Source of the DNA: Agrobacterium salinitolerans
GTDB lineage: Bacteria > Pseudomonadota > Alphaproteobacteria > Rhizobiales > Rhizobiaceae
Length of the DNA: 64,000 bases
Reading direction: 5' to 3'
Assembly: GCF_002008225.1 (NCBI RefSeq)
Contig: NZ_MRDH01000015.1
Coordinates: forward strand, 1 to 64,000
This document shows, in pieces, positions 3,150 through 13,984 of this stretch (its first letter is position 1; every line of letters starts with the position of its first letter). The notes under the pieces are model-generated. The model was not told the origin of the DNA and did no database searches. It was given only the letters and a program-made list of their open reading frames with translations. A program made the position numbers and the translations under genes.

Positions 3150-3794
3150 ATGATGAGTATTTTTCGCAAGCTGATGCCGCGCGAGGACCGTTTCTTCGAG
3201 ATGTTCAGCAAACATTCCGAAACCGTTATCAAAGCGGCCGAGGCCCTTGACCAACTTTTGAGCGGCGTCGACGTCGAGAAAAACTGCGACCTCATCGTCG
3301 CGCTGGAACACCAGGCGGATGACATCACCCGCGATGTGCTGCTTGCGGTCAGACGCAGCTTCATCACGCCATTCGATCGTGGCGACATCAAGGATCTCAT
3401 TCAGTCGATGGATGACGCCATCGACATGATGCACAAGACCGTCAAGACCATCCGTCTTTTCGAGCAAACGGAATTCGATCCGCTGATGAAGGAAATGGGT
3501 CATGAGATCGTGCGCGCAGCCGGCCTCATCGCAGAAGCCATTCCGCTTCTCAACAAGGTCGGCACGAATGCGCATCGCCTGTCATCCATCGCCGAAGAGG
3601 TGACCCGCGTTGAAGGCCGCTCCGACGAACTTCACGATCTAGGTCTCAAGGACCTCTTCCGCCGCCATGGCGCCAGCGGCGACGCCATGGCCTATATGAT
3701 CGGCAGCGAGATCTACGGCGAACTCGAAAAGGTCGTCGACCGCTTCGAGGATGTGGCCAACGAGATCAGCGGCATCGTGATCGAGAACGTCTGA
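3150..3794 (+). CDS. DUF47 (PhoU-like) Pit accessory protein
   Basis: A 214-residue protein opening with SIFRKLMPREDRFFEMF, the typical start of the DUF47 family, and continuing as predicted long helices like those of PhoU. Family members are encoded next to low-affinity phosphate transporters and are thought to modulate them. Start codons at 3150 and 3153 are consecutive; a GAGGG sequence about 10 bases upstream serves both. Its TGA overlaps the ATG of pit (TGATG at 3792-3796), so the two are translationally coupled. In rhizobia this gene is called orfA. Expression is expected to be controlled by the PHO box at 3089-3106. Confidence 0.9.
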   Translation: MMSIFRKLMPREDRFFEMFSKHSETVIKAAEALDQLLSGVDVEKNCDLIVALEHQADDITRDVLLAVRRSFITPFDRGDIKDLIQSMDDAIDMMHKTVKTIRLFEQTEFDPLMKEMGHEIVRAAGLIAEAIPLLNKVGTNAHRLSSIAEEVTRVEGRSDELHDLGLKDLFRRHGASGDAMAYMIGSEIYGELEKVVDRFEDVANEISGIVIENV

Positions 3795-4795
3795 TGGATG
3801 TCGCACTTGCCCTGCCGCTGCTTGTCGGCCTCATCGCCATTGCGCTGTTCTTCGATTTCCTGAACGGCCTGCACGACGCCGCCAATTCCATCGCCACCAT
3901 CGTTTCCACCCGCGTACTGCGCCCGCAATATGCGGTCGCCTGGGCGGCCTTCTTCAACTTTATCGCCTTCCTGTTTTTTGGCCTGCATGTGGCCGAAACG
4001 CTCGGCACCGGCATCATCGATCCAGCCATCGTGTCGCCGCAGGTGATCTTCGCGGCGCTGATCGGCGCCATTGTCTGGAACATCGTCACCTGGATTTTCG
4101 GCATTCCCTCCAGCTCGTCGCATGCGCTGATCGGCGGGCTCGTCGGTGCGGGATTTGCCAAGGTGGGTTTCAATTCCATCGTCTGGTCGGGCCTGCTGAA
4201 GACCGTGGGGGCCATTTTCATGTCGCCGGCCATCGGATTCTTCCTCGCCTTGCTTCTGGTGCTGACTGTCTCCTGGCTGTTCGTGCGGCAGACGCCCTTT
4301 GCCGTGGATCGCACCTTCCGCGTCATGCAGTTCATCTCCGCATCGCTTTATTCGCTGGGACACGGCGGCAACGACGCGCAGAAGACCATGGGCATCATTG
4401 CCGTGCTGCTCTTCAGCCAGGGCCATCTCGGCGAAAGCTTCTACGTGCCCTTCTGGGTGGTGATTTCCTGCCAGTCAGCCATGGCGCTTGGCACGCTGTT
4501 CGGCGGCTGGCGCATCGTTCATACGATGGGATCGAAAATCACCCGGCTGAACCCAATGCAGGGTTTCTGCGCCGAAACCGGCGGCGCGCTGACGCTGTTC
4601 GGTGCGACATGGCTCGGCATTCCGGTCTCCACCACCCACACGATCACCGGCGCCATCGTCGGCGTCGGCGCGGCCCGCCGTGTCTCGGCGGTGCGCTGGG
4701 GCCTTGCCGGCAATATCGTCATCGCGTGGATCGTGACCATGCCGGCGGCTGCGCTGATCTCCGCTGCGGTTTACGGGCTGACCTCGCTGTTCTGA
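3794..4795 (+). CDS. pit: Low-affinity inorganic phosphate transporter, PiT family
   Basis: A 333-residue polytopic inner-membrane protein of the PiT family that imports phosphate, usually as metal-phosphate with protons. The duplicated family signature is visible: FLNGLHDAANSIATIVSTR near residue 25, and in the second half GHGGNDAQKTMGIIA and GIPVSTTHTITGAIVG. About ten hydrophobic segments can be read. It is the second gene of a two-gene operon with the DUF47 protein and is probably used when phosphate is plentiful. The next gene (ku) begins 89 bases downstream, behind a perfect inverted repeat. Confidence 0.93.
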   Translation: MDVALALPLLVGLIAIALFFDFLNGLHDAANSIATIVSTRVLRPQYAVAWAAFFNFIAFLFFGLHVAETLGTGIIDPAIVSPQVIFAALIGAIVWNIVTWIFGIPSSSSHALIGGLVGAGFAKVGFNSIVWSGLLKTVGAIFMSPAIGFFLALLLVLTVSWLFVRQTPFAVDRTFRVMQFISASLYSLGHGGNDAQKTMGIIAVLLFSQGHLGESFYVPFWVVISCQSAMALGTLFGGWRIVHTMGSKITRLNPMQGFCAETGGALTLFGATWLGIPVSTTHTITGAIVGVGAARRVSAVRWGLAGNIVIAWIVTMPAAALISAAVYGLTSLF

Positions 4796-4824
4796 TAGCT
4801 GCATTACTGCCGCTACGGGCCGCT

Positions 4825-4866
4825 TCTCCCGGAACAAACGCCGCCCTTGGCTGTTGTTCCGGGAGA
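4825..4866. repeat. Perfect 13-bp inverted repeat between pit and ku
   Basis: The arms TCTCCCGGAACAA (4825-4837) and TTGTTCCGGGAGA (4854-4866) are exact reverse complements separated by 16 bases. There is no following T-tract, so a classic intrinsic terminator for pit is not obvious. The repeat overlaps a candidate EcfG-type promoter for ku (4831-4855), and its right arm contains the GGGAG that could act as a distant ribosome site. It could be a terminator, an operator, or a structure affecting ku expression. Confidence 0.6.
4831..4855 (+). promoter_or_regulatory. Candidate EcfG (general stress sigma) promoter for ku
   Basis: GGAAC at 4831-4835, 16 bases, then TGTT at 4852-4855. This fits the alphaproteobacterial EcfG/RpoE2 pattern GGAAC-N16/17-cGTT (GGAAC-N18-TT), except for T in place of the less conserved C. 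Transcription would begin near 4862, about 23 bases before the ku ATG. The same motif with the full CGTT lies upstream of the other ku/ligD unit at 10277-10301. Confidence 0.5.
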
Positions 4867-4884
4867 TCAACGTGGATCGCGGAC

Positions 4885-5676
4885 ATGGCACGGCAGGTTT
4901 TTTGGAAGGGTTATTTGAAGCTGTCGCTGGTGACGGCCTCCGTCTCGCTGACGCCCGCGACGACGGAAGGCAACAAATACAGTTTCCACATACTCAATCG
5001 CAAAACCGGCAACCGGGTCGAAAGCCGGTATGTCGACAGCATCACCCACCGACCGGTCGCCGCCAAAAACCAGGTGAAAGGTTTTCCACGCTCCGAGGAC
5101 GATTACGTTCTGCTGGAGGATGACGAAATCGATGCGGTGGCGCTGGAAAGCACCCGCACCATCGATATCAAGACTTTCGTGCCGAAAGGATCGATCGACT
5201 GGATCTGGTACGACCGTCCGCATTTCCTGCGCCCGGAAGACAAGATCGGCACCGAAGCCTTCAGCGTCATCCGCGAAGCCATGAAGGTGAACGATGTTTT
5301 CGGCATTGCGCGTCTGGTGATCTATCGCCGCGAAAGGGCTGTGCTCCTCGAACCTTCAGGCAAGGGCATCATTCTCTGGACACTGCATTACGGTGAGGAA
5401 GTGCGCGAAAGCATCGACGCCTTGGAGCCGAAGATGAAAATCGACCGGCCGCTGCTGGACGCCATGGAAAAACGCATCGGCAAACAGGTAACGGGTTGGA
5501 AGCCGGCTTTGGTGCAGGACCCCATTCAGAAAAAGATCAAGTCCCTGCTGAAGTCCAAGGGCGAGGAGGCCTCCTCCTCGAAAAAGAAAACCGGCACGAA
5601 GGCACGCAGCGGCGGCAATGTCATCAACATCATGGATGCCCTTAAGAAAAGCCTTGCTTCCGAAAAGAGAAGCTGA
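4885..5676 (+). CDS. ku: Ku protein, bacterial non-homologous end joining (first copy)
   Basis: A 263-residue homodimeric DNA-end-binding protein that forms a ring on broken ends and recruits LigD. The N-terminal Ku core starts at MARQVFWKGYLKLSLV. It continues through HILNRKTGNRVESRYVDS, RTIDIKTFVPKGSIDWIWYD and RRERAVLLEPSGKGIILWTL, all typical of bacterial Ku. The C-terminal tail is lysine/serine rich and ends in INIMDALKKSL. I chose the ATG at 4885 because residues before it in the open frame belong to the out-of-frame pit gene. It converges with ligD, whose stop is 13 bases away. The ribosome site is poor (GGGAG about 20 bases upstream). Confidence 0.92.
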   Translation: MARQVFWKGYLKLSLVTASVSLTPATTEGNKYSFHILNRKTGNRVESRYVDSITHRPVAAKNQVKGFPRSEDDYVLLEDDEIDAVALESTRTIDIKTFVPKGSIDWIWYDRPHFLRPEDKIGTEAFSVIREAMKVNDVFGIARLVIYRRERAVLLEPSGKGIILWTLHYGEEVRESIDALEPKMKIDRPLLDAMEKRIGKQVTGWKPALVQDPIQKKIKSLLKSKGEEASSSKKKTGTKARSGGNVINIMDALKKSLASEKRS

Positions 5677-5705
5677 GGCTCCATGCCTTCAGCCGGCCTT
5701 TTTCG
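5672..5705 (+). terminator. Possible terminator after ku, within the ku/ligD convergence
   Basis: GCTGAGGC (5672-5679), a loop TCCAT, then GCCTTCAGC (5685-5693) can pair with one bulged T. The plus strand then runs CGGCC followed by five T. The hairpin includes the stop codon of ligD on the other strand. It is short and imperfect, so the call is tentative. Confidence 0.35.
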
Positions 5706-8181
5706 GAAGCGGCTCGGCAGCAGCAAAAAAGCCGTCCCAAGGGTCTCTTTTCAGCGCGGAAAGGCGCGCGGCGATATTGTTGACGGTGAAATGGGCAGGA
5801 CCGATCTCGGCCGTCAGCTCCGACCATTCGAGCGGCGCTGAAATGGCCGCCCCTGGCCGGGCGCGCGTCGAATAGGCCGCAACCGCCGTATTGCCCCGGC
5901 CATTGCGCAGATAATCGATGAAGATACGGCCCTGCCGTTTCGCCTTGGTGGCGACGGAAAGATATTTCTCCGGTTCGGCCTTCGACATATCCGCCGCCAT
6001 GGCTTTCGCGAAGGCCTTGACCGGCGCCCAGCCCGCCTGCGGCTTTAACGGTGCGACGACATGCAACCCCTTGCCGCCGGACGTCTTAACGAAAGCAGCA
6101 AGCCCCGCCTCTTCGAAACGTCGCTTCAGTTCGTGCGCCGCCTCGATCACCGCGTCCCAGGCCACATCCTCGCCAGGGTCGATATCCATGGTGATCATAT
6201 CAGGCTTTTCCCAGTTGGCGGTGTTTGCCCCCCAGGGGTGGATTTCAAGCGCGGCGGACTGCACAAGCGCTATCAGGCCATCGAAATCGGTGATGCGGAT
6301 CAGCGGTTCGCCGCCCCGGTCCTTCGGATCCTTGATTTGCTCGATTGCCTTGTTGATGCCGCGCCAGGCGTGTTTCTGGAAAAAACGCTGGCCCTCTATG
6401 CCCTCCGGGCAACGCAGCAGCGCGAGCGGCCGGTTGACCACGAAGGGCGCCATGTGCCGCCAGACCTGCGCATAATAGTCGGCCAGTCCCTCCTTCGTCA
6501 CACCATCGTCCGGCCAGTAGAGCCGGTCGGGGTGAGTGAACTTGATCTTCGACTGCGGCGCCTTGCTATTCGACACGGCCTTCTCCTCGCGTTCGATCTC
6601 CCCAGCCGGCTTGTCTTCCCGTAGACCCCGGAAGGAGGCGTGACGAAGATTGCCATCTCCCGACCATGCGCGGAACTCCACTTCCGCCACCAGTTCCGGC
6701 TCCACGAAATGGAGATTGCGGCGGGCAAGCGCGGTGAGCTTGTCACCGAAGGGGCTGTCCTTGCGTTCCAGCGGCTTCAGCCGGCCAAGCAGCATTTCCG
6801 CCACGTCGCCCGTGTAACCCGTCCCGACACGGCCGACATGGCGCAGCTTGCCTTTTTCATAAACGCCGATTGCAAGCGAACCGATGGCTTGGTCCGATGT
6901 CGAGGAGACGGTATAACCGCCGATGACGAATTCCTGTCGCATCGAGCATTTAGATTTTACCCATTCGCCCATGCGGCCGGAAACATATTTGCTGTTCCTG
7001 ACCTTGGAAATGACGCCTTCGAGGCTCAGCCGGCAGGCATGGTCTAGGACAAGCGCGCCACTTTCTTCGAAATGCTGACTGTAGCGGAGATGGGGATCGC
7101 CTGCCGGCAACAGCTTTTCCAGCAGTGCCTTTCGCTCGCTCAATGCCGCAGCGCGCAGATCGCTGCCATCGAGATAAAGAAGGTCGAAGGCATAGAATAC
7201 GAAGCGGTCACTGCGCCCTTCGCTCAGATCCTTCTGCAAGGCGGAGAAATCTGATGCGCCGTTATCGCCTTCAACGACGATTTCGCCATCGATCAACGCC
7301 GTTTCTGCCGGTAGCGCCGTCAGCGCGGATGCTACGGCATCACCGAATTTTTCCGTCCAGTCGAGCCCGCTGCGGGTCAGCAGCTGAAGCTTGCCCTGAT
7401 CGACACGCGCCTGCAGACGGTAACCGTCGAATTTGATTTCATGCAGCCAGCGATCTCCGCTCGGCGGTTTAGGCTTGAGGGTGGCGAGCGCCGGAGGCAC
7501 GAAAGATGGCATAGCCAGTTTGCGCGCGCCTTTGGGCAGAGCATGCGCCTGTTTCCTGCCGGCGGCAGAAGCGACGGTCTTTTTCGATACGGGCTTGGAG
7601 TTCCAGGTATCCTTCGGTTTGGCTGCGACTTCCTCGACACTGCGCCCGGTTTTTACGGATTCCGGCCGTTCTTCGAGAATATCCCCGCCACCCTCATGCC
7701 TCGCCTCCTCGTCATCGCCCTTGATCAGCAGCCAGTTCTCCCGCTTTTCGCCGGGCTTTCCGTGCATTCGCACCAGATGCCAGCGGCCTCTCAGCTTTTC
7801 GCCGTCCAGTTCGAACTCCAGATGGCCTTTGCGATAACCCTTCCGAGCGTCCCCGGCCGGCTGCCAGGTACCGCGATCCCAGACGATCACCGCGCCACCG
7901 CCATATTGTCCTTTCGGGATGACGCCTTCGAAATCGCCATAGCTGAGCGGATGGTCTTCCACATGCACGGCAAGACGCTTGTCCTCGGGATCGAGGCTAG
8001 GGCCGCGCGTCACCGCCCAGCTTTTCAGCACGCCGTCCATTTCCAGCCGAAAATCATAGTGCAGTCGGCGGGCATCGTGCTTCTGGATAACGAAGCTCGA
8101 CCCTTGCTTTTCGGCCTTCGTGCCTTTGGGCTCCGGTGTCTTGTCGAAACTGCGCTTGGCGTTGTAGGTCTGCAATCCCAT
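5689..8181 (-). CDS. ligD: Multifunctional ATP-dependent DNA ligase LigD
   Basis: An 830-residue end-joining enzyme with three domains in the order phosphoesterase, ligase, polymerase. The 3'-phosphoesterase domain covers about 1-165 and has HDARRLHYDFRLE at 35-47. The ligase domain covers about 225-535, with the adenylated lysine at 250 in HEIKFDGYR and the motif DGE at 298-300. The primase-like polymerase covers about 545-825, with catalytic D666-I-D668 in MDIDPGE. The polymerase adds nucleotides at breaks, the phosphoesterase trims 3' ends and the ligase seals. It starts three bases after the stop of the second ku gene, so the two are one operon. The linker at 170-215 is low complexity. 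Confidence 0.95.
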   Translation of the reverse strand: MGLQTYNAKRSFDKTPEPKGTKAEKQGSSFVIQKHDARRLHYDFRLEMDGVLKSWAVTRGPSLDPEDKRLAVHVEDHPLSYGDFEGVIPKGQYGGGAVIVWDRGTWQPAGDARKGYRKGHLEFELDGEKLRGRWHLVRMHGKPGEKRENWLLIKGDDEEARHEGGGDILEERPESVKTGRSVEEVAAKPKDTWNSKPVSKKTVASAAGRKQAHALPKGARKLAMPSFVPPALATLKPKPPSGDRWLHEIKFDGYRLQARVDQGKLQLLTRSGLDWTEKFGDAVASALTALPAETALIDGEIVVEGDNGASDFSALQKDLSEGRSDRFVFYAFDLLYLDGSDLRAAALSERKALLEKLLPAGDPHLRYSQHFEESGALVLDHACRLSLEGVISKVRNSKYVSGRMGEWVKSKCSMRQEFVIGGYTVSSTSDQAIGSLAIGVYEKGKLRHVGRVGTGYTGDVAEMLLGRLKPLERKDSPFGDKLTALARRNLHFVEPELVAEVEFRAWSGDGNLRHASFRGLREDKPAGEIEREEKAVSNSKAPQSKIKFTHPDRLYWPDDGVTKEGLADYYAQVWRHMAPFVVNRPLALLRCPEGIEGQRFFQKHAWRGINKAIEQIKDPKDRGGEPLIRITDFDGLIALVQSAALEIHPWGANTANWEKPDMITMDIDPGEDVAWDAVIEAAHELKRRFEEAGLAAFVKTSGGKGLHVVAPLKPQAGWAPVKAFAKAMAADMSKAEPEKYLSVATKAKRQGRIFIDYLRNGRGNTAVAAYSTRARPGAAISAPLEWSELTAEIGPAHFTVNNIAARLSALKRDPWDGFFAAAEPLPKKAG

Positions 8182-8184
8182 AGA

Positions 8185-9018
8185 TCAGCTCGCTTTCCGC
8201 GGCGCCTTGCGGCCTTTTGCCGTCGCTCTTTTCTTGCTGTCCTTTTCGGCCCCGGCGCTGCGACGCAGGGCCTCCTTGAGATCGATGATATTGTCTTCCT
8301 TGCGTGGCGGCTGTTTCTCGATTTCCCGGCCCTCGATCTTGGCTTTCACAAGTTCTGCCAGCGCATCGTTGTAACGGTCGCTATAGTCGGCGGGATCGAA
8401 GGTGCCTGCGCGCTTTTCGATGATGTGCCCGGCGAGCTCGAGCATTTCTTCATCGAACTCGATGTCAGGGATCGACTTGAAGACGGATGTCTGCGAACGG
8501 ACCTCGTAGCTGAAATTCAGCGTCGTCGCGACGAGAGCCTTACCGCTCGGACGGATCAGCAGGACACGGTTGCGGCGGAAAAGCACCGCTTCGCCGAGAG
8601 CTGCGACATTCTCGTCGTTCATGGCTTTCGCCAGAAGCGTCAACGCCTCTTCACCACCCTCATCGCTTGGCGCGAGATAATAAGACTTGTCGAAATAAAG
8701 CTTGTCGATCTCGTCACAGGGCAGAAAGTGACTGATGCGGATAACCTTGTCGCTTTCCGGCATCAGCTTTGCGATCTCGTCTCCCTCGATGACGATATGG
8801 TCGCCATTGTCGAGTTCGTATCCCTTGACCTGATCTTCGCGAAGAACCGCCTCGCCGGTATCGCTATCGACATATTGCCGCTCGACGCGGTGGCCGGTCT
8901 TGCGGTTGACGATATTGAAGGAGATTTTCTCCGCCGAGGTCAGTGCGGAATAAAGACCAACTTCGCAGTTGAAATCGGCGAAGGTCAGCTTGCCTCTCCA
9001 GCTCGCTCTCCGGTTCAT
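8185..9018 (-). CDS. ku: Ku protein, bacterial non-homologous end joining (second copy)
   Basis: A 277-residue Ku paralogue that differs clearly from the copy at 4885. It begins MNRRASWRGKLTFADFNCEVGLY and contains the same core blocks (FNIVNRKTGHRVERQYVD, RPSGKALVATTLNFSYEVR). Its C-terminus is an extended basic tail of the kind that contacts DNA in some rhizobial Ku proteins, ending in KRATAKGRKAPRKAS. Its start overlaps the stop of the 72-aa ORF upstream (ATGA, 9015-9018), and ligD follows after three bases. Two Ku copies raise the possibility of heterodimers or condition-specific use. Confidence 0.93.
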   Translation of the reverse strand: MNRRASWRGKLTFADFNCEVGLYSALTSAEKISFNIVNRKTGHRVERQYVDSDTGEAVLREDQVKGYELDNGDHIVIEGDEIAKLMPESDKVIRISHFLPCDEIDKLYFDKSYYLAPSDEGGEEALTLLAKAMNDENVAALGEAVLFRRNRVLLIRPSGKALVATTLNFSYEVRSQTSVFKSIPDIEFDEEMLELAGHIIEKRAGTFDPADYSDRYNDALAELVKAKIEGREIEKQPPRKEDNIIDLKEALRRSAGAEKDSKKRATAKGRKAPRKAS

Positions 9019-9233
9019 GCTCGTCGTCCCTCGTTGGCCAGAATGCGCTCGATGGCGGGCACGTCCGCCTCTGCCAGAACCGGCACCGGGTCGGACGCCA
9101 TGGCTTCAAGCACCTCCGGCGACAGCCCGCCATTGCGGATGACCCATTCCATCGCCTCGCGGGTTTGCCGCTCGGCTTTCAACTGTGCATAAAGCGCCAG
9201 TATCAGCCGGTCGCGGACATCCAAGCTCTTCAA
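9015..9233 (-). CDS. Small hypothetical protein (72 aa) coupled to ku
   Basis: A 72-residue acidic protein of two parts. The N-terminal half is helical and charged (SLDVRDRLILALYAQLKAER, then QTREAMEWVIRNGG). The C-terminal half is rich in proline and alanine around the EVLEAMASDPVPVLAEADVP stretch. No family was recognised. Its stop overlaps the ku start in an ATGA, and it begins 41 bases after the stop of the SDR gene, so it probably belongs to an SDR-orf-ku-ligD operon. Conservation of the overlap would support a role linked to end joining; the function is unknown. Confidence 0.65.
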   Translation of the reverse strand: MKSLDVRDRLILALYAQLKAERQTREAMEWVIRNGGLSPEVLEAMASDPVPVLAEADVPAIERILANEGRRA

Positions 9234-9274
9234 ATTCCTTTCTGATGGGCTCGTCCGGCATGGCGGGCATCGCC

Positions 9275-10168
9275 TCAGGCAATGCCCCTGCCGCCAGTCA
9301 CACCATAAACCTCGCCATTGATGAAGCTCGCATCCTGCGACGCCAGCAGCACATAAACGGGCGCCAGTTCCACCGGTTGTCCCGGACGGCCGAAATCGCT
9401 GTCCTTGCCGAAATTCTTCACCTTCTCGTCCGGCTGGCCGCCGCTTGGCTGAAGCACCGTCCAGAACGGACCGGGAGCAACGGAATTGGCGCGCACACCT
9501 TTTTCGATGAGCTGTTTGGCCAGCGCTTTTGTGTAGGCGACGATACCGGCTTTGGTGGTTGCGTAATCCAGCAGGATTGCGGAGGGCTCATATGCCTGGA
9601 TCGAGGCGGTCGTGATCACCGACGACCCCGGCTTGAGATAGGGAACAGCCGCCTGGGCAATCCAGTGAAGCGCATAAAGATTGGTCTTCATGGTTTGGTC
9701 GAAGTCGGCTGTCGACAATTCCTCTATGTCGTCACGATACTGCTGTCTTGCGGCATTGATGACCAGAATATCCAGTCCGTCGAGATCGCCTGCTGCTTTC
9801 TCAACCAGTTCACGGCACCACGCCTCATCGGTAATATCGCCGGGCAGCGCCACGGCTGTTCGACCTTCCGCCTCAATCAGCGCCACAACTTCCTCGGCGT
9901 CGGCTTCTTCTTCCGGCAGGTAGGAGATCGCCACATCCGCGCCCTCCCGCGCAAAGGCGATAGCGACCGCGCGGCCGATGCCTGAATCGCCTCCGGTGAT
10001 CAGCGCCTTGCGCCCAGCAAGCTTGCCGGCGCCGCGATAGGTCTTCTCACCATGGTCCGGGAAAGGCGTCATATTCGTCACCAGACCAGGCATTTCCTGG
10101 GTCGGGGTGGAAAACGGCGGGCGCGGATACTGGCTGCGCGGGTCTTGCGGCTCGAGGCGGTCTGTCAT
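9275..10168 (-). CDS. SDR-family oxidoreductase, general-stress type (YghA/GSP39-like)
   Basis: A 297-residue short-chain dehydrogenase with an N-terminal extension of about 45 residues (SQYPRPPFSTPTQEMPGLVT), as in YghA and the Bacillus stress protein YdaD. The NAD(P) site is ALITGGDSGIGRAVAIAFAREGADVAI and the active site is TTASIQAYEPS with YATTK. Its natural substrate is unknown. I chose the ATG at 10168 because GGAGAG lies 6-11 bases upstream; the open frame runs further but overlaps the MHYT gene. It appears to be the first gene of a unit leading into the 72-aa ORF, ku and ligD, under an EcfG-type promoter. Confidence 0.88.
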   Translation of the reverse strand: MTDRLEPQDPRSQYPRPPFSTPTQEMPGLVTNMTPFPDHGEKTYRGAGKLAGRKALITGGDSGIGRAVAIAFAREGADVAISYLPEEEADAEEVVALIEAEGRTAVALPGDITDEAWCRELVEKAAGDLDGLDILVINAARQQYRDDIEELSTADFDQTMKTNLYALHWIAQAAVPYLKPGSSVITTASIQAYEPSAILLDYATTKAGIVAYTKALAKQLIEKGVRANSVAPGPFWTVLQPSGGQPDEKVKNFGKDSDFGRPGQPVELAPVYVLLASQDASFINGEVYGVTGGRGIA

Positions 10169-10276
10169 CGCGGTCTCTCCCATAGATAGGTTTATCCATC
10201 CGTGGCGCGTTCGCTGACAGGCAGGCATACCGCCCGGTCGGGCTGACAGCGGCATGGACGCGCCACACGCTAACCT

Positions 10277-10301
10277 AACGATCTGCCTTGGTTCTCGTTC
10301 C
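10277..10301 (-). promoter_or_regulatory. EcfG (general stress sigma) promoter ahead of SDR-orf-ku-ligD
   Basis: Read on the minus strand: GGAAC (10301-10297), 16 bases, then CGTT (10280-10277). This is an exact match to the alphaproteobacterial EcfG/RpoE2 consensus GGAAC-N16/17-CGTT. It lies about 110 bases upstream of the SDR start. Homologues of this SDR are stress-induced in other bacteria, which agrees with the motif. Confidence 0.7.
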
Positions 10302-10353
10302 ATCGGGCACGGGAAAGGAGGGCGGCGGCACCATTGTGCCGTCGCATGTTTTA

Positions 10354-12693
10354 TCAAACGGGGTGTCTCTTCCGTCTGGCAGGGTTTGCCGCCGGCGCGG
10401 GCGCGACATCCGGTTTTCCGAAAAGATAGCCCTGCGCTTGCGCGCAACCCTCATCGACCACCATGCGGTATTGCGCATCCGTTTCAATCCCCTCTGCCGT
10501 CACCGGCAGATCGAGGCTGCGGCCAAGCCCGATTACCGCGCGCACGATGGCGCGGGCATTGTCATCGTCGCTCATGGCGGCGATGAAGCTTCGGTCGATC
10601 TTGATCTTGTCGAAGGGGAAGCTCTGCAGGTTGCTAAGCGAGGAGTAACCGGTACCGAAATCGTCCATGACGATGGCAACGCCGAGCGCCTTCAACTGGT
10701 TGAGGATGATCAGCGTCGCCTTGCGGTCTTTCAAAAGCGCGGCTTCGGTGATTTCCAGCTCCAGCCGGTTCGGCGAAAGCCCGGTCTGCATCAGTGCGGT
10801 GCAGACGACATGGCCGAGATTGGCCAACGAGAATTGCAACGGCGAGACATTCACCGCGATCTTCAGATGTGGCGCCCAAGTGCTTGCCTGGCGGCAGGCC
10901 TCGCGCAGCACCCATTCGCCGAGCGAGATGATGATGCCGCTCTCCTCGGCAATCGGAATGAAGACATCCGGCGGCACGACGCCGCGCGTTGGGTGCTGCC
11001 AGCGCACCAGCGCCTCGTAACCGACCACCTGGCCGCATTCGACCGAAAGGACCGGCTGATAATTCAGCAGCAGTTCGTTGCGATTAATAGCGAGCCGCAA
11101 ATCCGTCTCGAGCTGGCGGCGTTCGCGCGCTTCCTGGTCCATCAGGGGGTCATAGAAGGCCAATATGCCGCGCCCGCCCATCTTGGCGCGGTAAAGCGCC
11201 AGATCGGCGGCATGCATGATGCTTTCGTGGTCCTTCCCGTCCCGCGGAAAGACGGCGATGCCGATGCTGACGCCAACGGAAGTCGGATCGTTGGCGACAT
11301 TCATCTTCAGCGCGAACATGCCAAGGATCGTCTCTGCCAGCAAACGGGCCTCTTCCGCCCTGGTTTGCCGTGCGGTCAGAATGACGAATTCATCGCCGCC
11401 GAGGCGGGCGACCACATCGCCTGCCCTTGCACATTCATCGAGAATAGCGGCGACCTTTTTCAAAACACGGTCCCCTTCGGCATGGCCGAATATGTCGTTG
11501 ACCGCCTTGAAGCGGTCGAGATCGAGCGCCAGAAGCGCGAATTGGTCCTCCTCGTCGCAGAGTTCGATCTGCTGGTGAAGACGGGTCTGGAACATGGTGC
11601 GGTTGGAAAGGCCTGTCAGGACGTCGTGGCGGGCGAGATATTCGATTTCCCGCTGCGCTTCGCGCTTTTCCGTCAGGTCGCGAATGGCCATCACCTCGCA
11701 AGGATGGCCGCGGAATTCGATCGTGCGCACACTAAGCTCGAATATTTGCGCCTGGCCGGCGCGCTCGCGAACCGCCTCCACAGGTGCGTGGCGCGGCAGA
11801 TAGGCGGGCTGTCCGTCGATGGCCTTGAAAAGATCGTCGGGATTTTGTCCGAGCAGCGACGCTTCCTCCCGACCCAGAAGGCCGGCAAAGCGGGTGTTAA
11901 GCTCCACAATCCGCCCATCGCGCACGACGGCGAGACCATCGAGCGTCGCATCCACAAGCCCCTTGAGATCGACAAGGTAACGATCCACAAGAGCAGCAGC
12001 GGCAGTGGTGGACAGGATCAGGAAGGTGACGCCGGAAATGGCGCAGATCATGATCAGCCGGGCGACATTGTCGGGATCAGGCCCGGATACGGATGGATCC
12101 GGCGAAAGCACCGTGGCCGACATGGCCGTGAAATGCAGTGCGCAGATCGCGAAGATCGCCGATCCGGCCGGCGCGGCGATGCGCTGCCAGGAGCCGAGGC
12201 GACGGAAAAGGAAAAACGCCAGAAGAAACGACACCCAGGCGACCGCAAAACCACCCACCACCGCGCTCCACCGGTAGCTGATCGTGGCGGCGACATCCAT
12301 TCCGGCCATTCCGACGAAATGCATGACGGCAACCGACAAGGTGATGAGCGTGCCGACGATCACCGGGCTGTGAGCGGCCCGCGAGCGTGTAATGAGCGCA
12401 AACCAGAAACCGAAAACGGCCAGAACCGCAGAAAGAGCCGTGAAGGCGAAATCATAACCGATCGGGACCGCACCCTTGTAGGCCAGCATGGCGACGAAAT
12501 GCGTCGCCCAGACGCTCAGTCCCCCGGCAAAGGCCGCAATCAGCACCCAGTAGGGTTTACGGCCAGCCGGACTTTCTTCCGCGCGCAATAAAAGATGAAA
12601 AAAAGCAAACATGCCAAGAAGGCAGATAACAGCCGCGAGAAGCACGACCGCGTGGTCGTGCTGTATGGCAACGCATTCCAGAACCGTGAACAT
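10354..12693 (-). CDS. Membrane MHYT sensor with GGDEF and EAL domains (cyclic-di-GMP synthesis/breakdown)
   Basis: A 779-residue inner-membrane protein. An MHYT-type sensor with about seven helices occupies residues 12-235 and shows repeats ATHFVAML (63-70), VMHFVGMAGM (123-132) and ALHFTAMSA (185-193). MHYT domains are proposed to bind copper and sense oxygen, CO or NO. A PAS-like region follows (245-345), then GGDEF with an intact GGDEF at 432-436, and EAL with an intact EAL at 560-562 in GYEALVRW. Both output domains therefore look potentially active. It is transcribed away from the membrane gene at 12881. AT-rich DNA upstream (12730-12800) probably holds the promoter. Confidence 0.93.
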   Translation of the reverse strand: MFTVLECVAIQHDHAVVLLAAVICLLGMFAFFHLLLRAEESPAGRKPYWVLIAAFAGGLSVWATHFVAMLAYKGAVPIGYDFAFTALSAVLAVFGFWFALITRSRAAHSPVIVGTLITLSVAVMHFVGMAGMDVAATISYRWSAVVGGFAVAWVSFLLAFFLFRRLGSWQRIAAPAGSAIFAICALHFTAMSATVLSPDPSVSGPDPDNVARLIMICAISGVTFLILSTTAAAALVDRYLVDLKGLVDATLDGLAVVRDGRIVELNTRFAGLLGREEASLLGQNPDDLFKAIDGQPAYLPRHAPVEAVRERAGQAQIFELSVRTIEFRGHPCEVMAIRDLTEKREAQREIEYLARHDVLTGLSNRTMFQTRLHQQIELCDEEDQFALLALDLDRFKAVNDIFGHAEGDRVLKKVAAILDECARAGDVVARLGGDEFVILTARQTRAEEARLLAETILGMFALKMNVANDPTSVGVSIGIAVFPRDGKDHESIMHAADLALYRAKMGGRGILAFYDPLMDQEARERRQLETDLRLAINRNELLLNYQPVLSVECGQVVGYEALVRWQHPTRGVVPPDVFIPIAEESGIIISLGEWVLREACRQASTWAPHLKIAVNVSPLQFSLANLGHVVCTALMQTGLSPNRLELEITEAALLKDRKATLIILNQLKALGVAIVMDDFGTGYSSLSNLQSFPFDKIKIDRSFIAAMSDDDNARAIVRAVIGLGRSLDLPVTAEGIETDAQYRMVVDEGCAQAQGYLFGKPDVAPAPAANPARRKRHPV

Positions 12694-12880
12694 GACGCAC
12701 TCTCCCAGCCTCTGAAGAACCGCTCAGGATGGCACTATGGGAATGGTTTATTTATAAATCTCTAATGCAACCAATGATAATTGTTTCAATATTTTTTCGC
12801 GCACGAAAAAGAAAGCGGGCCGGCGCGCCAGGCTGTCACGCTTATGGCAAACCGACCCGGGAAAATCATTGACCGAAACT

Positions 12881-13984
12881 TTATTTCCAGCTTCGGTAAT
12901 CTGCCGCGGCACATCCGAAAGGCGCCGCGCCATCGGCGAAACGCTCCTGCAACCGGGCGCAACCCCATTCGTTAAGCGCCGCCGGCAGCATGTTGTTGAT
13001 GTCCATTCCGGGCGAGTTGAACTGCGAGGGAGCGCTTGTGACATACCACAGCCAGTAACCGAACACCGCGACGACGATGACGGCGACGATCGCAGCGAAA
13101 ATGCCCAGTCTGCGCAGCAGGCCCGGTCCCTTCTTCATCGCCGCGGCCTGGGCCGTTGCAGCCTCCTGCGCCTCACTGGCGAGCATCGGGGCAATTGATG
13201 CAAGGGCTTCCGCCCTTTCCTGCTCGGTCAGGTCGATCCGCTCCAGCTGATCGTCAAGCAGAACCGGCAAGGCGCTGTCGCCATGCAGGACCGCCAGCGC
13301 CACATCCTGTTTTCCAGTGTGACCAATGACAACGGGAATGCGGCCCCGCTCCAGATGCGCAAAAGATTGCCGCTTGGTTTTATCGTCCCTCACCGTATCG
13401 GCATAGGTGACGAAGAGCCGGCTGCGTTTTTCGGCAACCGCCGTCAGCGCCACCGGAATAACGGACAAAGGCGCAGGCTTGCGCAGTTGCAGACGAACCC
13501 GCAGGATCCGCAGAAGCGTGAACAGCATCGCCAGACTGCCGAAACCGAGAAGAACAACAAACACGCCAAGCGTGATGATGCGGTTCCAGAGCATGTCAAG
13601 ACCCAGCGAAATCGTTGCGAGTTCCGGGTTCTTCGCGGAGATGACCAGTCCGGTTTCATAATCGCCGGAATGGAAATCGACGAACATGACCTCGACGTCT
13701 TTCTTGTAGCTTACGCCCGCATGGTCATAGGAAAGATCGGCCTTGCAGGTCGTGAAGATCGCCTTGCGCGTCTTGCAGCTGCCGCTGATATCGCCGTTTT
13801 CAATCTCCAGCGGATCTTTGCTGATCTGATAGTCGCGCAATATGCCCGGGCCTTCGGCGACAAGCATGACGACCGTTATGGCCAGAAGCACCGGAATGGA
13901 AAAATAATAGGCTGCAGGCGCCGAAATGACGCCGCGTTTGAGGCTCAGCGGCCGCGACGGAAGTTTTATCTGTGCAAGGTTCAT
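12881..13984 (-). CDS. Membrane protein of unknown function (three predicted helices)
   Basis: A 367-residue protein that I do not recognise. Three hydrophobic stretches are clear: YYFSIPVLLAITVVMLVAEG near the N-terminus, ITLGVFVVLLGFGSLAMLFTLL in the middle, and IFAAIVAVIVVAVFGYWLW near residue 310. Between helices one and two is a soluble segment with two cysteines (GSCKTRKAIFTTCKAD), probably periplasmic and perhaps disulphide bonded. Between helices two and three is a charged region of about 130 residues, probably cytoplasmic. The last 45 residues again carry two cysteines. I chose the start at 13984 (MNLAQIKLP); the open frame continues upstream through low-quality sequence. Confidence 0.75.
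   Translation of the reverse strand: MNLAQIKLPSRPLSLKRGVISAPAAYYFSIPVLLAITVVMLVAEGPGILRDYQISKDPLEIENGDISGSCKTRKAIFTTCKADLSYDHAGVSYKKDVEVMFVDFHSGDYETGLVISAKNPELATISLGLDMLWNRIITLGVFVVLLGFGSLAMLFTLLRILRVRLQLRKPAPLSVIPVALTAVAEKRSRLFVTYADTVRDDKTKRQSFAHLERGRIPVVIGHTGKQDVALAVLHGDSALPVLLDDQLERIDLTEQERAEALASIAPMLASEAQEAATAQAAAMKKGPGLLRRLGIFAAIVAVIVVAVFGYWLWYVTSAPSQFNSPGMDINNMLPAALNEWGCARLQERFADGAAPFGCAAADYRSWK

Follow-up and report, generated by a model that had tools for sequence, protein, structure and literature searches.

The two ku genes and the ligD gene of the Agrobacterium salinitolerans window (the whole stretch of DNA analysed, 64,000 nucleotides) very probably form a unit of the general stress response. 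KuB-LigD and KuA face one another, EcfG would drive both arms, and an SDR gene is carried as a passenger behind the ku promoter.

Layout of the facing ku arms

The locus and its boundaries hold the following features.

10354-12693, minus strand: boundary gene for an MHYT-PAS-GGDEF-EAL protein (domain match)
10277-10301, minus strand: putative left-arm EcfG-type promoter GGAAC-N16-CGTT, GGAACGAGAACCAAGGCAGATCGTT (pattern match, N16 exact)
9275-10168, minus strand: SDR family oxidoreductase PRK06128.1, ATG start preceded by GGGAGAG
9015-9233, minus strand: ORF72, the 72-aa ORF, TTG start with AGAAAGGA immediately 5' of it
8185-9018, minus strand: KuB, the second ku of the earlier note (TIGR02772 Ku_bact, E 4.1e-79)
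5689-8181, minus strand: LigD, with 3'-phosphoesterase (PE), ligase (LIG) and primase-polymerase (POL) domains
about 4885-5676, plus strand: KuA, convergent with ligD (TIGR02772, E 6.4e-73)
4831-4855, plus strand: right-arm EcfG-type site GGAAC-N16-TGTT, GGAACAAACGCCGCCCTTGGCTGTT, 5' of KuA
4826-4865, strand-neutral: inverted repeat CTCCCGGAACAA / TTGTTCCGGGAG, overlapping the KuA site (read by eye)
3794-4795, plus strand: boundary gene for a PiT-type transporter 5' of KuA (match below the curated family cut-off)

The motif upstream of the SDR gene, as well as the succession of SDR, 72-aa ORF, ku and ligD on one strand, had been described in the earlier note and both were recovered here: SDR and ORF72 are 41 nt apart, ORF72 overlaps ku by 4 nt, and ku and ligD are separated by 3 nt. 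The single promoter proposed there is supported for the left arm; the second EcfG-type site, before the convergent ku, had been missed. The whole genome has no Ku match besides KuA and KuB, both of which lie over the Ku_bact cut-off, and LigD carries the PE, LIG and POL domains together. An upstream site of the type expected for EcfG-regulon promoters (GGAAC-N16/17-CGTT) was found, with CGTT in the left arm and TGTT in the right. Searching positions 3500-13000 against Rfam gave no match.

By eye, L011-L014 and L226-L228 have versions of the inverted repeat with altered letters at the corresponding position. A hairpin-like stretch persists there in G011, a genome that lacks ku, and hence the repeat may be the terminator of the transporter gene.

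Conservation of the left-arm motif and the place of SDR

Counting alone does not set the motif apart. The bare GGAAC-N16-CGTT was found once in the window against 0.88 expected (at least once in 57 of 100 shuffles), and the genome scan proposed in the earlier note returned 117 occurrences against 102 for the backwards pattern, which is not above chance. Motif counting was therefore dropped as evidence in its own right, and the significance of the motif comes only from position and conservation. These equal-to-chance numbers in window and genome are what would be seen if the motif were a functionless chance match; that reading is contradicted by position and conservation on both arms and is regarded as extremely improbable.

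The extended motif TGGAACGAG-N10/12-ATCGTTA occurs once in 19 of the 39 genus genomes and nowhere in the other 20, and the reversed control gave 0. Each of the 19 places is a ku-ligD cluster beside the window's neighbour gene, and TGGAACGAG...ATCGTTA is kept in 19/19 genus genomes which have ku-ligD beside that same gene; the spacer and flanks of the left promoter have diverged among 16 aligned loci. The 19 genomes are made up of 16 loci with ORF72 and three more (L226-L228). Among the 16 loci beside the shared neighbour, 11 have intact SDR with ORF72, four have ORF72 and no SDR, and one (L117) retains an SDR remnant. The three further genomes, G017, G037 and G001, have the cluster beside the neighbour gene and the motif, with no usable ORF72 and no intact SDR. 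At L226 the first SDR codons are fused into the ku leader and the motif lies 192 nt before ku, at L227 ORF72 is decayed and the distance is 276 nt, and at L228 both SDR and ORF72 are absent and it is 169 nt. Across the 19 genomes the stretch from motif to ku thus ranges from 169 to 1375 nt, its content being SDR with ORF72, ORF72 alone, remnants or none.

In G011 and G016, two genomes that gave no Ku match, the neighbour gene is retained (95% and 90%, respectively) and the extended motif is absent. At 60 and 90 nt past that gene, respectively, their sequence rejoins the transporter side of the window (94% and 90%, each over about 1.4 kb); in G011 a short match to the start of KuA is left, preceded by the hairpin-like stretch, in which GGAAC now stands 20 nt from TT (by eye). 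Set against the 19 cluster genomes, these two indicate that the left promoter and ku-ligD were gained or lost together, with SDR and ORF72 varying in between. The comparison supports the left motif as a selected promoter that would belong to ku-ligD.

The promoter could instead serve SDR as a common stress gene, with ku-ligD having its own promoter and read-through being incidental. SDR relatives elsewhere in part agree with this: GGAAC-N18/19-TT was found within 250 nt upstream in 14 of 16 distant paralogues (L151-L164 of rows L150-L165) and in one of the four closer homologues not beside ku. It was these sites that prompted the motif to be considered as SDR's own promoter, a reading rejected on account of the SDR-free loci. 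In 8 of the 19 genomes SDR is absent, shortened or decayed and the promoter is nevertheless retained, and a GGAAC site stands directly before ORF72 in every SDR-free locus of the wider set described below. Moreover, the SDR-ORF72 junction showed neither a sigma-70-like promoter nor a minus-strand terminator in a scan built on the E. coli consensus; a separate promoter at this point was what the earlier note had named as counting against its operon. An assignment of the promoter to SDR is accordingly considered unlikely. With the promoter taken as that of ku-ligD, we infer from the sequence that EcfG would drive both arms and that transcription would run through SDR and ORF72 into ku-ligD. One weak terminator-like hairpin lies on the minus strand inside kuB (8956-8979), and additional housekeeping promoters may be present.

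Among the ORF72 matches listed, SDR precedes ORF72 only in L011, L012 and L014, and there the motif stands before SDR. In a tree of 27 ku sequences (L226-L228 left out) the 16 loci form one clade, within which SDR is missing at two places and a remnant at a third; L120 and L110/L112/L115 have a common spacer type, yet are not grouped. One gain of SDR followed by several losses and the spread of an SDR-free allele by recombination would both be possible histories.

Sites before ORF72 and KuA in the Rhizobiaceae

The scan for ORF72 gave at least 85 relatives, of which 80 Rhizobiaceae loci were kept, and upstream sites were analysed in 77 of them after leaving out the SDR-bearing L011, L012 and L014. 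Each of the 77 SDR-free loci among the matches listed has a single GGAAC-N18/19-TT in the 200 nt before ORF72, 72-165 nt (mostly about 97 nt) away from the conserved part of that ORF; owing to the relatedness of the loci, these counts are non-independent trials. As background, the site was found in 266 of 9068 strand segments of 200 nt (2.9%), and on the opposite strand at this position it is present in 2/77 of the listed loci. GGAAC was found to be the commonest pentamer upstream of ORF72 (77/77 against 46 for the next, and 12/77 in a control segment, among the matches listed), and a spacing of 18 is prominent, in about 70 (70-71) of the 77. Among the 71 listed loci with N18 the spacer and the flanks have diverged (mean pairwise identity 0.42 in the spacer, 0.30 and 0.34 in the flanks), while identity reaches 0.87 at the G before TT, a letter that is no part of the search pattern; conservation of the GGAAC and TT columns follows from how the loci were searched and is no proof on its own. 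The site is conserved beyond chance at the orthologous position. The strict form GGAAC-N16/17-CGTT within 500 nt was present in 9 of the 80 listed loci against 97 of 2704 control segments, and it was rejected as too narrow a pattern for the wider set. By this comparison (19/19 genus genomes and 77/77 listed loci) the end-joining operon behind an EcfG promoter, as the earlier note had it, is supported, with the amendment that the promoter goes with ku and not with SDR.

For KuA, 55 loci had their best match on the expected strand, and 52 remained after L075, L078 and L082 were dropped where the locus ends early; five further loci with weak plus-strand matches were left uncounted. Between -300 and +20 of KuA, 47 of these 52 listed loci have a GGAAC-N18/19-TT site and 5/52 have none; it falls wholly inside the 200 nt upstream in 37/52, against 4/52 on the opposite strand. 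As a site stands before KuA too, both arms are covered, the KuA arm appearing the weaker of the two. In L029 and L043, GGAAC-N16-CGTT ends 8 nt before the KuA ATG, at which distance the mRNA would be nearly leaderless; eight more loci show the same distance.

Six genomes with ORF72 apart carry a distant ku-ligD cluster with facing ku elsewhere, having the site upstream of both arms (6/6 and 6/6), although such sites are common nearby (7-9 in 8 kb, both strands). The tandem ku genes of S. meliloti LMB1 and of A. fabrum C58 pAt have it before the first ku. Class-wide, 33 ku rows from 29 loci were compared, with L174 entering twice; 19 of these rows have the site and 5 have it on the opposite strand, so the rule is not universal.

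In A. pusense-type loci (L012 at 7141-8064, L103 and L113) the LigD match runs from residue 522 on, which is the polymerase part, and the ligase and phosphoesterase parts are absent behind KuB; the L113 stretch ends within the gene. Both ku types occur with no LigD match of at least 50% identity in 13 loci (L039, L041, L042, L050, L054, L059, L064, L067, L070, L072, L073, L077 and L083). KuB and KuA face each other without LigD in 12 of them; the exception is L039, where the two stand in tandem and a LigD match of 40% is found close by. In L100, on plasmid pNCHU2750c (typed as conjugative), ORF72-ku-ligD with the facing ku lies beside imuA, imuB, dinP and a DNA polymerase III epsilon gene, and this cluster is perhaps a mobile repair island.

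By sequence comparison, ORF72 is coding and under strong purifying selection, with 0 second-position against 10-25 third-position codon differences in 60 codons (four comparisons). In the window its usual N-terminus is lost, and the start codon is TTG. No family was found for it in Pfam or NCBIfam, an LRV match was weak and below cut-off, and PADLOC gave no match. Among PDB sequences it has no relative except one designed protein (E 0.29). Its predicted structure has three helices (mean pLDDT 85, pTM 0.51) and found no match in the PDB with Foldseek. Of 57 loci among the matches listed, 9 have ORF72 overlapping ku by 4 nt, and in 27 the two are no more than 20 nt apart. In the other 30/57 (for example L029, L041 and L052) ku follows 241-431 nt behind, so that in these loci ku may have a promoter of its own of a different kind; an EcfG-type site between the conserved ORF72 start and KuB was found in 0 of these 57 listed loci, the full stretch being searched.

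ORF72 occurs in 30 of the 39 genus genomes and ku in 37 of the 39. The set with ORF72 away from ku comprises 18 loci, and leaving L026 out of the ku search, ku was found elsewhere in 17/17 genomes; since ku is common in the genus and family, this co-presence is statistically weak. The cluster occurs without intact ORF72 in four genomes (L226-L229), hence ORF72 is not essential to ku-ligD. It is a tentative suggestion that ORF72, at the head of the putative kuB-ligD operon, may be an accessory factor, so far undescribed, which takes part in stress-induced end joining in the Rhizobiaceae. Where ORF72 stands alone (L019, L033, L086 and others), a GGAAC-N18/19-TT site still precedes it. In 10 of 21 loci compared an ORF of about 700 aa stands behind it, and in L019 and L086, the two cases tested, this ORF was of GH13 type; L019 and L033 have a cytochrome c gene upstream.

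Proposed stress regulation and comparison with known systems

In the genome, phyR, nepR and an ecfG-type sigma gene stand next to one another. NepR is above the Pfam cut-off and below the narrower NCBIfam one, the label ecfG-type is based on PRK12547 and on the place beside nepR and phyR, and GGAAC-N17-CGTT stands about 50 nt before the likely phyR start. In the proposed mechanism, PhyR would free EcfG from NepR, and RNA polymerase with EcfG would start at the two facing promoters. From 10277-10301 (minus) it would read SDR, ORF72, kuB and ligD in turn, and from 4831-4855 (plus) it would read kuA. SDR is interposed ahead of ORF72 only in some members of the A. tumefaciens complex, where it would have been lost or exchanged several times. 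The effect would be more end joining under stress or in the absence of growth, when a cell may have no second chromosome copy to recombine with, and KuA and KuB would presumably act together.

GGAAC is the -35 element common to several ECF sigma factors and does not alone specify one of them. The -10 letters differ among loci, the loose form nGTT being present in 71 of the 77 loci among the matches listed. A different ECF sigma factor could thus act at the site, in place of EcfG or alongside it. Against this, the -10 CGTT and N16 of the left arm equal the R. etli EcfG1 motif, printed as GGAAC-N16-CGTT in the available part of PMC3892343, which agrees with the EcfG-type assignment made in the earlier note. 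Ku genes are moreover EcfG targets in two sphingomonads: as far as the available text goes, ku-ligD belongs to the direct GSR regulon of Sphingopyxis granuli (PMC7083833), and a Ku gene with a GGAAC site is among the top EcfG-dependent genes of Sphingomonas melonis (PMC6599016). Use by a different ECF factor is slightly less probable still than a promoter belonging to SDR, and EcfG is retained as the probable sigma factor.

Work of Dupuy from 2019 reportedly placed S. meliloti end joining (Ku2-LigD2, Ku3/Ku4-LigD4) under RpoE2. The earlier note had mentioned such control by the general stress sigma, and a review states, in the part available, that RpoE2 induces two NHEJ pathways in S. meliloti (PMC12844678). 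The R. etli ku and ligD genes are described in PMC10932983, in the available part of which RpoE2 is not mentioned. The words ligase and end-joining are absent from the main texts of PMC3892343, PMC3616915, PMC6180224, PMC3188799 and PMC4167512, which do not name ku or ligD as a stress-sigma target. A literature search aimed at the genus, a wider one and one with C58 locus tags gave no Agrobacterium expression study of these genes among the matches listed.

These outcomes would add the A. tumefaciens complex, which serves for DNA transfer into plants, to the bacteria in which error-prone break repair is under general-stress control. The loci form a natural series in which the passenger genes vary and promoter and ku are constant, and a conserved small protein, ORF72, heads the putative operon. 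It is predicted that joining of ends, deletions and capture of foreign DNA would occur in stress and starvation.

The S. meliloti end joining under RpoE2 resembles the present system in the family Rhizobiaceae, in Ku with LigD, in two Ku types and in control by the general stress sigma, which is predicted here. In S. meliloti locus L195 a relative of KuB and one of KuA follow each other in tandem, and the first match is preceded at 69 nt by a GGAAC site; the pair is 51% identical to KuB and 51% to KuA, and 35% crosswise, so that two diverged Ku are present. KuA and KuB may by analogy be likened to a heterodimer of the Ku3/Ku4 type, L195 being a candidate ku3/ku4 locus only. Unlike the tandem, KuB-LigD and KuA of the window face each other with a site of their own each, and the left arm includes SDR and ORF72. 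The ku-ligD genes of S. granuli TFA (SGRAN_4136/4135) and Ku gene #1102 of S. melonis Fr1 are similar in belonging to the EcfG regulon, as is predicted for the genes of the window, whereas ORF72, SDR and a convergent second ku are unmentioned in the available parts of these reports (PMC7083833, PMC6599016). Sinorhizobium fredii NGR234 (pNGR234b, L104) has the same facing order of KuB-LigD and KuA, and an EcfG-type site precedes each arm, at 97 nt from the match to KuB and at 65 nt from that to KuA; ORF72 and SDR are unmatched in that stretch. EcfG control of ku/ligD has already been reported for sphingomonads and S. meliloti. What appears to be new here is the genus concerned, the arrangement with a site on either side, the range of loci that have or lack the passengers, and ORF72 as a conserved leading protein.
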